This document shows, piece by piece, positions 18,970 to 35,520 of a stretch of 39,422 nt of DNA (its first letter is position 1; every line of letters begins with the position of its first letter). Under the pieces are notes generated by a model. The model saw nothing but the letters and a program-made list of their open reading frames with translations, was not told the DNA's origin and made no database searches. Position numbers and translations under genes: made by a program. This DNA is from Paracoccaceae bacterium (GTDB lineage: Bacteria > Pseudomonadota > Alphaproteobacteria > Rhodobacterales > Rhodobacteraceae), in assembly GCA_027489355.1 (NCBI GenBank), contig JAIXZY010000030.1, positions 1 through 39,422 on the forward strand. The letters are read 5' to 3'.

Positions 18970-19845
18970 ATGGGGATGATCCTGGCATTCGACATCGGCG
19001 GCAGCCGGATCAAGGCGGCGGCCTGGGATGGGGCGTTGCGACCCTTGGGCGAGGTGGTGACGCCGCTGGGCGACAAGGCGGCCTTCACGGCGGCGATTGC
19101 CGGGTTCGTCACGGGTCAGGAGAAGGGCATCGCCATCTCTATCGCCGGGGTGGTCGATCCTGCGACGGGCGTGGGCAAGGTGGCGAACATCCCGGCAATC
19201 GACGGGCTGCGGCTGGGACCCGAGGTTCAGGCGGCCACGGGGCTGCCGGTCCGGGTGCTGAACGACGCCGATTGCTTCGCGCTGGCCGAGGCAGAGCAGG
19301 GCGCGGGGCGGGGGCATGGGACGGTGTTCGGGGTGATCCTCGGCTCGGGCGTCGGCGGCGGGCTGGTGATGGACGGGCGCGTGGTCATGGGCGCGGGCGG
19401 CTATGCCGGGGAATGGGGGCATGGGCCGGTGATCCGGGGCGAGTTCGCGTTCCAGTGCGGCTGCGGTCAGGTGGGTTGCGTGGACACGGTGGGCAGCGCG
19501 CGGGGGCTGGAGCGGCTGCACCGCAAGCGCACGGCCGAGCTGCTGGGGTCCGAGGCGATCATCGCCGCCTGGATGGCCGGGGAGGCCGAGGCGGGCGAGA
19601 CGATGGCCCTGTGGCGCGAGCTGGTGGCGGGGCCGCTGGCGATGGTGGTCAACGTGGTCGGCGCGGATGTGGTGCCGGTGGGCGGCGGGTTGTCGAAGGC
19701 TCCGGGACTGGTGAGCTACTTGGACGAGGCAGTGCGGGTTCGGGTGTTGCGGCGGACCAAGGGGCCGCTGCTGGTTCCGGCGGAGTGCGGCGCGGATGCG
19801 GGACTTCTGGGTGCGGCGATGGCGGGGGTCGCCGCATGGGGGTGA
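18970..19845 (+). CDS. ROK-family sugar kinase
   Basis: This 291-residue protein has the N-terminal phosphate loop AFDIGGSRIKAA and the catalytic aspartate in LNDADCFALAE. The ROK signature continues through LGSGVGGGLVMDG, with EWGHGPV and the zinc site CGCGQVGC (CxCGxxGC). The family phosphorylates N-acetylglucosamine, glucose, mannose or fructose; nearby genes do not decide the substrate. It has no N-terminal helix-turn-helix, so it is a kinase and not a ROK repressor. A second in-frame ATG lies 2 codons in (18976). The end overlaps cutC by 10 bases. Confidence 0.9.
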   Translation: MGMILAFDIGGSRIKAAAWDGALRPLGEVVTPLGDKAAFTAAIAGFVTGQEKGIAISIAGVVDPATGVGKVANIPAIDGLRLGPEVQAATGLPVRVLNDADCFALAEAEQGAGRGHGTVFGVILGSGVGGGLVMDGRVVMGAGGYAGEWGHGPVIRGEFAFQCGCGQVGCVDTVGSARGLERLHRKRTAELLGSEAIIAAWMAGEAEAGETMALWRELVAGPLAMVVNVVGADVVPVGGGLSKAPGLVSYLDEAVRVRVLRRTKGPLLVPAECGADAGLLGAAMAGVAAWG

Positions 19846-20621
19846 CGCTGGAGGTCTGCGTCGACACGGCGGAGGGGCTGGCCCAGGCCGTGGCCGGTGG
19901 GGCGGACCGGATCGAGCTTTGCGCCGCGCTGGCGGTGGGGGGGCTTACGCCCTCGGCCGGGTTGATCGCGTTGGCGGAGGGCTGCGGGGTGCCGGTTGTG
20001 GCGATGATCCGGCCCCGCGCGGGGGATTTCGTCTGGTCCGAGGCCGAGGTTGCGATGATGGAGGCCGAGATCGCGGCCGTGCGCACGGCGGGGCTTGCGG
20101 GCGTGGTGCTGGGGGCGTCGCGGCCGGACGGTGGTTTGGATGTGCCGGTTCTGCGGCGGTTGGTTGCGGCGGCGCGGGAAGACCGATTTCTTCGAAGAAA
20201 TCGGGACGGAGCCTTTGAAGGCTCCGGTCCGGAGTTTTCGAAAACTCCGGGGGCCTTCGAATTGGTGCTGCACCGGTGCATCGACCTGGTGCCGGACATG
20301 GGCGTGGCGTTGGAAGAGGCGGTGGCGCTGGGGTTCGACCGTATCCTGACCTCGGGCGGGGAGGTTATGGCCGAGGCCGGGGCGGCGCGGATCTCGGCGC
20401 TGGTCAGGCAGGCGGCGGGGCGGATCGTGGTGATGCCGGGTTCGGGGGTGAACCCCGGGAACGCGGCGATGCTGAAGGGGCTTGGCATTACCGAGATCCA
20501 CGCGTCATGTTCAGCCTCGACGCCGGTCGCGGGCCGGGTGGTGGAGATGGGGTTCGCGCCGGCGGTGCGGCGTCAGACCGATGCGGACGCGGTGCGGGCC
20601 TTGCGGGCGGCGCTGGTATAG
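19836..20621 (+). CDS. cutC: CutC-family protein with an in-frame palindromic-element insertion
   Basis: This 261-residue TIM-barrel protein has the CutC hallmarks: LEVCVD at strand 1, GADRIELCA, VVAMIRPRAGDF, then LHRCIDLVPDM, FDRILTSGG and VMPGSGV. The family was named for copper tolerance, but its activity is unknown. Between AAA113 and FELVLHR lies an extra block of about 24 residues (EDRFLRRNRDG through FSKTPG). The family normally runs straight into its TFHRAFD-like strand there. The block is encoded by three consecutive palindromes (20183-20250) and uses codons rare in the gene, such as AGA, TTT, CTT, AAT and AAA. The protein is therefore longer than the usual 240-250 residues. The HRAFD motif reads HRCID here. 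Confidence 0.88.
   Translation: MGVTLEVCVDTAEGLAQAVAGGADRIELCAALAVGGLTPSAGLIALAEGCGVPVVAMIRPRAGDFVWSEAEVAMMEAEIAAVRTAGLAGVVLGASRPDGGLDVPVLRRLVAAAREDRFLRRNRDGAFEGSGPEFSKTPGAFELVLHRCIDLVPDMGVALEEAVALGFDRILTSGGEVMAEAGAARISALVRQAAGRIVVMPGSGVNPGNAAMLKGLGITEIHASCSASTPVAGRVVEMGFAPAVRRQTDADAVRALRAALV
20183..20250. repeat. 68-bp triple-palindrome element inserted in cutC
   Basis: Three dyads follow one another. The first is a perfect 22-bp palindrome with half CCGATTTCTTC (20183-20204). The second is a 9-bp stem CGGAGCCTT/AAGGCTCCG with a TG loop (20207-20226). The third is a perfect 22-bp palindrome with half CCGGAGTTTTC (20229-20250). The reading frame of cutC stays open throughout. The composition is richer in A/T than the host gene. 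The layout recalls Rickettsia palindromic elements, which also insert in frame within genes. Confidence 0.85.
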
Positions 20622-20630
20622 GAGCGGGTG

Positions 20631-21404
20631 ATGGAGTTGAGGCTGGACTATGACCGCCCGGAGGAGGGACCAGGATCGGGACCGCTGACCGTGGGCTGGT
20701 TCCTGGCGCAGGACAAGGGGGCAGTGCTGTACGACCCGCCGGAGCGGGTGTCGATCCGCCCGCCCAACAAGGCGCACGCCAAGTCGGCCAGCCGCTGCCC
20801 CGCGGTGATCCAGCTGGAAAGCCGGTATTTCATGGTCAAATGCCCCTTTGACCTGCACATCGGCTTTCAGCGCGACGACAAGGGCAAGGCGGTGCTGGTG
20901 AACCGGGCGGGGGCGTCCTCGCCCATCCGCTCGTCGAAGCTGAACGAGGTGCTGACGCTGGTCAGCGAGGCGGAGTGGCGCTTTCCGGACCGGCCGACGA
21001 TCCAGCTGCACCTGCCCTACTATTTCATCGCCGACGAGATGGTCTACCTGACCCAGCTGGGGGCCTTTGCGCATTACCGCCCCGACCCCCTGCCCGGCAC
21101 GATCTTCGGCGGGCGCTTCCCGATTTCGATCTGGCCGCGGCCCTTGATGTGGGCCTTCGAATGGCACGAGCCGCAGAAGGACCTGGTCCTGCGCCGGGGC
21201 GAGCCCTTGTTCTATGTCCAGTTCGAGGGGATGGACCCGTCGCGGCCCGTGCAGGTGGTCGAGGCGGAGCGGACGGCGGAGCTGCAGGCCTATCTGGAAC
21301 AGATCTCGGGCGTGGTGAATTACGTCAACCAGACGTTCTCGCTGTTCAAGGCGGCGGAGGGCTTGCGGCCGAAGAAGCTGTTGGTCGCGAAGGACCGGGG
21401 GTAG
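20631..21404 (+). CDS. Conserved protein of unknown function
   Basis: I do not recognise this 257-residue protein. It has no signal peptide or membrane helix and is rich in aromatic residues. Notable blocks are SRCPAVIQLESRYFMVKCPF, IQLHLPYYFIADEMVYLTQ, FPISIWPRPLMWAFEWHE and VNYVNQTFSLF. The strong Trp/Tyr/Phe clustering suggests a compact all-beta or mixed fold. The ATG at 20631 has GGAG 6 bases upstream, formed at the cutC stop, so it is probably in one operon with the ROK kinase and cutC. An extragenic repeat follows 15 bases after the stop. Confidence 0.75.
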   Translation: MELRLDYDRPEEGPGSGPLTVGWFLAQDKGAVLYDPPERVSIRPPNKAHAKSASRCPAVIQLESRYFMVKCPFDLHIGFQRDDKGKAVLVNRAGASSPIRSSKLNEVLTLVSEAEWRFPDRPTIQLHLPYYFIADEMVYLTQLGAFAHYRPDPLPGTIFGGRFPISIWPRPLMWAFEWHEPQKDLVLRRGEPLFYVQFEGMDPSRPVQVVEAERTAELQAYLEQISGVVNYVNQTFSLFKAAEGLRPKKLLVAKDRG

Positions 21405-25662: not shown

Positions 25663-25690
25663 GTAGGGTGGGCGATATCGCCCACCCTAC
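25663..25690. repeat. GGGTGGGC palindrome family, copy B
   Basis: This is a perfect 28-bp palindrome with half GTAGGGTGGGCGAT, starting 6 bases after the clpB stop. It belongs with the copies at 15966, 28714 and 35464. Confidence 0.8.
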
Positions 25691-35463: not shown

Positions 35464-35520
35464 GGCGTAGGGTGCGCTGTAGCGCACCGTCCGAAGGTGC
35501 GCTGTAGCGCACCCTACGCC
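35464..35520. repeat. GGGTGCGC palindrome family, copy D (double hairpin)
   Basis: Two copies of a hairpin, GGTGCGCTGTAGCGCACC (35471-35488 and 35496-35513), lie in opposite context. Outer arms pair over the whole unit: GGCGTAGGGTGCGCT with AGCGCACCCTACGCC. The right end overlaps the 3' end of the lacI-family gene and supplies its last alanine codon and TAG stop. It can also end transcription from the Nudix side. Confidence 0.85.

Follow-up and report, generated by a model that had tools for sequence, protein, structure and literature searches.

The palindromic block within the cutC gene of this Paracoccaceae bacterium is probably one copy of a REP-like element of three hairpins that belongs to gene 3' ends, where it would act as a bidirectional terminator or as a stabiliser of transcript ends, and that landed in frame in a tolerant loop of the CutC protein. 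The block lies at positions 20183 to 20250 of the window, by which we mean the whole 39,422-nucleotide stretch of DNA that was analysed. A preliminary description had reported two perfect 22-bp palindromes around a hairpin, and these are indeed exact: P1 (CCGATTTCTTCGAAGAAATCGG, 20183..20204, core 20184-20203) and P3 (CCGGAGTTTTCGAAAACTCCGG, 20229..20250, core 20230-20249) each have 11-bp arms, and the P2 hairpin (CGGAGCCTTTGAAGGCTCCG, 20207..20226), which is kept between P1 and P3 in full copies, has 9-bp arms and a 2-nt loop. Together they form a 66-nt core on the plus strand (20184..20249) with a 20-3-20-3-20 geometry. This core scores 95.4 bits with our covariance model R1, which was built from 11 copies including this one, so that the value is the score of a training member.

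The window contains three loopless perfect palindromes with arms of at least 9 bp, two of them in the block, while 10 second-order Markov sequences contained 0 or 1 each. The 68-nt block folds at -38.8 kcal/mol (z -5.76), and 0 of 200 shuffled sequences folded as low. The reading frame is open across the whole block, and its codon use is foreign, in line with the preliminary description: a home-made codon score gave log-odds of -11.5 within the element, whereas the 240-nt flanks scored +14.9 and +24.6. Nothing except the draft state of the genome (81 contigs) speaks for chance palindromes or an assembly artefact, a reading that the Markov and shuffle controls contradict and that independent genomes refute, since the block occurs in seven other genomes of the genus and in 44 of 120 CutC protein rows; we regard it as vanishingly improbable. 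Elsewhere in the window, a perfect 28-bp palindrome at 25663-25690 starts with GTAG and ends with CTAC, resembling the tag of GTAG-type REPs, and twin GGTGCGCTGTAGCGCACC hairpins lie at 35464-35520 within an inverted repeat (28 bp, 89%) whose arms are separated by a single base.

Searching the genome with the two 22-mers, as had been suggested, recovered three exact copies of P1 and two of P3, and none with the reversed controls. The inner 18-mer of P1 occurs nine times exactly and 24 times with up to two mismatches (reversed control, 0). The 20 loci inspected in the window's genome represent 15 distinct places, of which 11 have P1, P2 and P3 together and four have P1 and P3 only (L008, L015, L016, and L017). 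The 11 three-part copies yielded the 66-nt core with its 20-3-20-3-20 geometry, two of them with small indels. With the covariance model (E<=0.01, strands merged, some matches partial), 29 distinct places were found in this genome among the 150 scored of 4623 first-look candidates.

All 32 genomes of the genus match the model at E<=1e-6, with 1 to 89 rows each when both strands are counted. Under stricter filters and E<=1e-10, matches were found in 9 of 394 genomes of the family, two of them of this genus, and in 1 of 385 genomes of the class, which is the window's own. A pattern scan of named genomes returned at least 80 loci, and the names among the matches listed are Tabrizicola, Rhodobacter, Pseudogemmobacter, Gemmobacter, Xinfangfangia, Fuscovulum, and Pseudorhodobacter, together with unclassified MAGs. 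The host group is presumably the Tabrizicola group of Rhodobacteraceae, and the element is a repeat family of this group and a few related Rhodobacteraceae genera, present in few genomes outside the genus. Two of the pattern-scan loci (L172 and L176, CP059262.1) lie in a MAG labeled Exiguobacterium profundum, a label that is probably wrong.

We then asked where the element sits relative to genes. The 151 distinct full copies comprise 63 between convergent genes, 66 in tandem gaps, 7 in divergent gaps, 9 without a called neighbor, and 6 inside a gene. The 136 placed copies can be compared with the 561 element-free gaps of the same loci, which are 73 convergent, 385 tandem, and 103 divergent. 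From the element to the closest stop codon beside it, the median distance is 8 nt, and 98 of 129 cases lie within 20 nt; one gene end extends 23 nt into the element, and a few copies overlap called gene ends (L086, L148, and L168). Hairpin order in tandem gaps shows no orientation bias (34:32). The six intragenic copies are all at cutC loci, most of them fetched because they were cutC, and none of the remaining 145 is contained entirely in a gene called by our home-made codon scorer. With a coding density of 86.4% in the element loci, this amounts to a strong avoidance of genes. The set was assembled from the best-scoring model hits and exact pattern matches under a strict filter; this filter missed two of the eight cutC copies (G008 and G021), and decayed intragenic copies elsewhere would escape. 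A search with the insert-region peptide, covering one reading frame and a limited length range, found CutC in 23 of 25 proteins; the two others (P0024 and P0025) carry the insert near the C terminus and look like miscalled frames. The family is thus a gene-end element, and cutC is its exception.

These counts bear on the idea of a Rickettsia-type selfish palindrome that spreads through protein genes by being translatable in frame. Such an element would explain why the cutC copy is in frame and stop-free, why relatives lack the insert, and why, whichever of the six frames is read, 78 to 124 of the 145 intergenic copies contain no stop codon. The absence of any other full copy wholly within a gene, the near confinement of the peptide to CutC, and the failure to find a transposase above cut-off or a general target duplication (see below) all argue against it, and we consider it very unlikely. 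The preliminary description had likened the block to the gene-inserting, translated Rickettsia palindromic elements (RPEs), and the same counts of 0 of 145 and 23 of 25 do not bear this out.

Several possible identities and sources of the element were tried and rejected. Around the window copy, no Rfam model matched up to E 1; among 14 further loci, there were three sub-threshold matches, one of which overlaps an element (flavi_FSE in L012, 23.4 bits against a gathering score of 43), so that a known RNA family is not indicated. A 6S RNA-like match on the minus strand of L008 (1561-1719; 45.2 bits, gathering score 46.4) has a two-part copy of the element (P1 and P3) about 20 nt away. The Y1 transposase model PF01797 gave no match above cut-off in any of the 32 genus genomes and weak matches in two, while the control search was positive in Escherichia coli and four other control genomes; a REP transposase was rejected for these 32 genomes. 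Over 151 copies, the best flank identity (0.366) was within the permuted range (maximum, 0.377), and a general target-site duplication, as expected of MITEs, was not seen. Neither the 72,556 plasmid records nor the 50,697 phage records contained a match, which argues against a plasmid or phage source at the sensitivity used. Among the open-access matches listed, titles and abstract openings do not describe the element, and the only paper that joins Tabrizicola with the word palindromic appears, from these parts of the text, to concern parS sites. The word Rhodobacter is absent from the passages of two REP surveys that were available.

We also compared orthologous slots at gene ends. On the 3' side of pgi, 30 genus loci were read and a convergent ridA was recognized in 20, the remaining 10 having a different neighbor or no recognizable ridA. 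The 20 pgi/ridA gaps hold the element in seven cases, an A-hairpin-T arrangement in five by a loose rule (clear by eye in G022, G044, G008, and G045 and without a T tract in G005), and another hairpin in eight. At this one junction, the only one compared in such detail, the element stands where relatives have other hairpins, some of them terminator-like. A different recurrent hairpin, of type GCGGGGGTGTGAAACCCCCGC, occupies the pgi 3' slot in L272, L276, L281, L283, L284, and L288. On the 3' side of rnd, we compared 30 of the 32 matched loci: all three parts are found in G000, G005, G010 (decayed), and G017, three diverged hairpins are found in G001, and most genomes without the element have other sequence with no clear terminator. 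By eye, seven element-free rnd slots (L292, L293, L296, L297, L301, L305, and L311) contain repeat-like sequence around GCTCGTCG...GACTTCGTCACTCCTCGC. This pattern of presence and absence at the pgi and rnd ends indicates turnover of the element at orthologous gene ends. Of the mobile, protein-tolerated repeat family envisaged by the preliminary description, multiple copies and turnover at orthologous sites have been found, while host genes other than cutC, a transposase above cut-off, and a general target duplication have not.

The hairpins themselves are conserved. In the 145 intergenic copies, 97.8% of stem pairs are Watson-Crick and 91 two-sided changes are seen, compared with 19 to 43% and 3 to 9, respectively, when the partners are slid by one to three bases. 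The fifth pair of P3 is G-C in 68 copies, A-T in 62, and C-G in 10, and the bases immediately outside P1 and P3 covary as well. The conserved unit is therefore the set of hairpins, beyond their sequence alone. Imperfect palindromes can also be made perfect by templated correction. G-T intermediates at the fifth P3 pair are rare (2 of 145), which is consistent with such correction as well as with selection. The center of P2 is TG in 64 copies, CA in 63, and CG in only 11, a pattern resembling the outcome of C-to-T changes at a cytosine exposed in the loop; the centers of P1 and P3 are mostly CG, with CA and TG variants.

Compared with described systems, the element is a gene-end family that resembles REPs, but neither their usual tag nor their usual transposase was found. 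REPs are defined in the available part of PMC12306157 as short, similar, palindromic, multi-copy sequences mostly outside coding sequence, and the element, with 20-nt single hairpins found as a 66-nt trimer, fits this broad definition. According to passages of PMC3733652, REPs tagged with GTAG or CGTC are mostly intergenic, lie between convergent or same-direction genes and near stop codons, and are sometimes intragenic, with dimers and groups that encode 20 to 30 residues; different REPs occur at about the same recB site in two Xanthomonas species, and CGTC REPs are said to be without a dedicated transposase as well. Our element shares with them the short multi-copy palindromes, the intergenic location near stops, and the occasional intragenic copy. 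It differs in being a three-hairpin unit of fixed spacing and in having no conserved tetranucleotide tag, since no single junction has one in more than 9 of 145 copies. It differs from RAYT-type REPs in that no Y1 transposase above cut-off was found in the 32 genus genomes.

RPEs, as presented in part of PMC10969869, are about 150 bp long, with close to half of them reported from within the open frames of genes unrelated to one another. Other bacteria too have genic repeat families that resemble the Rickettsia ones, according to the part of PMC2267715 that we consulted. As in RPEs, palindromic DNA adds residues in frame to a conserved protein here, and in all eight genus carriers the host gene is open through the element at the sequence level. 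Unlike RPEs, the element is 66 nt long, is found in one gene, and otherwise keeps to gene ends, and insertion into many unrelated genes is not seen (6 of 151 full copies intragenic, all in cutC, decayed copies escaping the count). Bidirectional intrinsic terminators occupy the same slot between convergent stops and share symmetric hairpins and a lack of orientation bias. The element differs from them in its conserved repeat sequence, its three hairpins, and the absence of flanking A/T tracts; a T tract does not follow the hairpins, the frequency of T being 0.03 to 0.23 in each of the six bases past the core. Judging from its position alone, we infer that the element may terminate transcripts or protect their 3' ends from either side.

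The exceptional copy sits in a plus-strand gene (19836..20621) whose product belongs to the CutC family (PF03932, E 3.1e-61); the NCBIfam equivalog model gives 145 bits, under its cut-off of 311. An upstream gene on the same strand (18970..19845) overlaps the start of cutC, and another called 9 nt downstream (20631..21404, same strand) may belong to the same operon. The protein has 261 aa, compared with 236 aa in most insert-free relatives among those listed, so that the block adds about 24 to 25 residues, in agreement with the in-frame gain of about 24 proposed earlier; the core corresponds to residues 117-138 of P0001. In the predicted structure (mean pLDDT, 82.6), the insert lies between a helix (103-113) and a strand (142-148), and 17 of its 22 core residues have a pLDDT below 50. 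The insert is thus modeled as a low-confidence loop from helix to strand, just ahead of central strand five of the barrel; such a model had been proposed earlier as a way to see whether the insert sits in a surface loop. Helix-to-strand loops of a TIM barrel lie on the face away from the active site, and this predicted location would fit tolerance of the insert. The fold matches solved CutC proteins of the same family, human and bacterial (3iwp, 1twd, 2bdq, and 4r9x). The alignment with 3iwp is interrupted precisely where the insert lies (query 2-114 and 143-229), and the matches to 1twd and 2bdq are likewise split in two, with residue 113 as the end of the first part.

CutC was searched in 25 of the 32 genus genomes, and the site was covered in 22: eight carry the insert and 14 do not, while G014 covers the site partly and G002 and G007 have no CutC match. 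In all eight carriers, the insert is stop-free and in one frame and one orientation. At the level of the family, 69 genomes match CutC, with an alignment through the insert in G000 only; in the 68 others, 67 of which belong to other genera, no CutC match runs through it, and three matched on one side only. Of the CutC proteins at E<=1e-60, we aligned the best 120 of 692 among the matches listed, and 44 rows have the insert, whether intact, decayed, or partly deleted, while some insert-free rows retain a few extra residues. The preliminary description had named a block universal among CutC orthologs, or palindromes confined to one place in the genome, as grounds for abandoning its reading; close relatives lack the block, and the palindromes recur.

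The insert columns were left out of a quick CutC tree of 145 rows and 224 columns, in which 48 rows are carriers and many forks are open. This tree requires 31 parsimony changes, compared with a shuffled mean of 40, and its starred branches force at least five changes of carrier state. Carriers as a single clade were rejected (p-AU 0.0001; 44 carriers versus 89 noncarriers, with four deep carriers excluded after inspection of the tree). Furthermore, near-identical inserts are found in very different cutC genes: G011 and G016 differ at 2 of 66 insert positions and at 204 of 675 flanking ones (30%), the similarity ending at the insert edges (19/63 differences on the left and 13/60 on the right), and G000 and G020 differ at 1 of 66 and 103 of 675 (15%). 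By contrast, the inserts of G008 and G021 diverge about as much as their flanks. The T/I variants of the insert require 12 changes on the tree, which is no better clustered than shuffled labels (mean, 13.3; 61 of 200 as low). These observations would be expected if the element had entered at one cutC codon repeatedly, in separate lineages, rather than ancestrally with later losses and exchange. A single origin, however, predicts the frame and orientation common to the eight DNA carriers and a constant spacing of 28 residues between where the insert begins and the LHR motif, which holds in 39 of the 48 carrier rows (the other nine unparsed). Allelic exchange predicts what is seen in P0027 and P0081, which differ in a short tract at the insert and beyond it: their 4 differences in 224 positions outside the insert region all lie within about 30 residues downstream of the insert. 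Losses alone would scatter carriers too, and the tree is a quick one with many open forks. We regard recurrent site-specific insertion, which is compatible with the other readings, as a real possibility, although somewhat less than probable.

The G000 cutC copy is one mismatch away from copies in two other genomes and three from the nearest sampled copy in its own, so that ectopic conversion within G000 is not supported, copies per genome being incompletely sampled. By eye, diverged repeats a few residues long can be seen on both sides of the insert in some cutC genes. Overall, many events of loss, decay, exchange, or regain have affected the cutC insert, and its hairpins are perfect in several species. 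Explanations that may hold, alone or combined, are a single old insertion followed by losses and exchange, repeated insertion, and maintenance of the hairpins.

Another reading is that the cutC copy works where it is: its hairpins would act on cutC and the gene downstream as a pausing signal or a translation-coupled attenuator, and selection would keep them. All 24 counted stem pairs are intact in five of the eight carriers, the inserts of the two pairs of genomes above have changed far less than the surrounding gene, and the neighboring genes are close and on the same strand. In addition, the P3 codons GAG...ACT and GAA...ATT differ by paired changes that keep the stem and alter a residue. 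Nevertheless, 14 of the 22 genus genomes lack the insert, decayed and partly deleted alleles exist (23 of 24 pairs in G010, 20 in G021, and 16 in G008), and templated correction of imperfect palindromes could yield the same pattern without selection. In-place function of this kind is, in our view, rather unlikely. Also doubtful is a scenario in which the insert serves at once as a protein loop and as a putative translation-gated terminator within the gene, is repeatedly regained or re-perfected at the same cutC codon in separate lineages, and has its hairpins held at the nucleic-acid level. If this were true, translation of cutC would decide whether the mRNA continues past the hairpins.

The gene-end element that we favor would act as follows. 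At gene ends, it would end transcripts or shield their 3' ends, from either side. An ectopic copy would have entered cutC in frame, before the fifth central barrel strand, and would have survived there because its frame is stop-free, its length is a multiple of three, and the helix-to-strand loop is exposed; ribosomes translating cutC would keep the hairpins from acting, and this may contribute to its tolerance.

These data provide a Rhodobacteraceae group with a described gene-end repeat family and a covariance model for it. With its intact, decayed, partly deleted, and empty alleles, the cutC site is a natural experiment in terminator-like DNA entering a protein, and these alleles could be used to test how coding palindromes are kept up, whether by selection, templated repair, exchange, or re-insertion.
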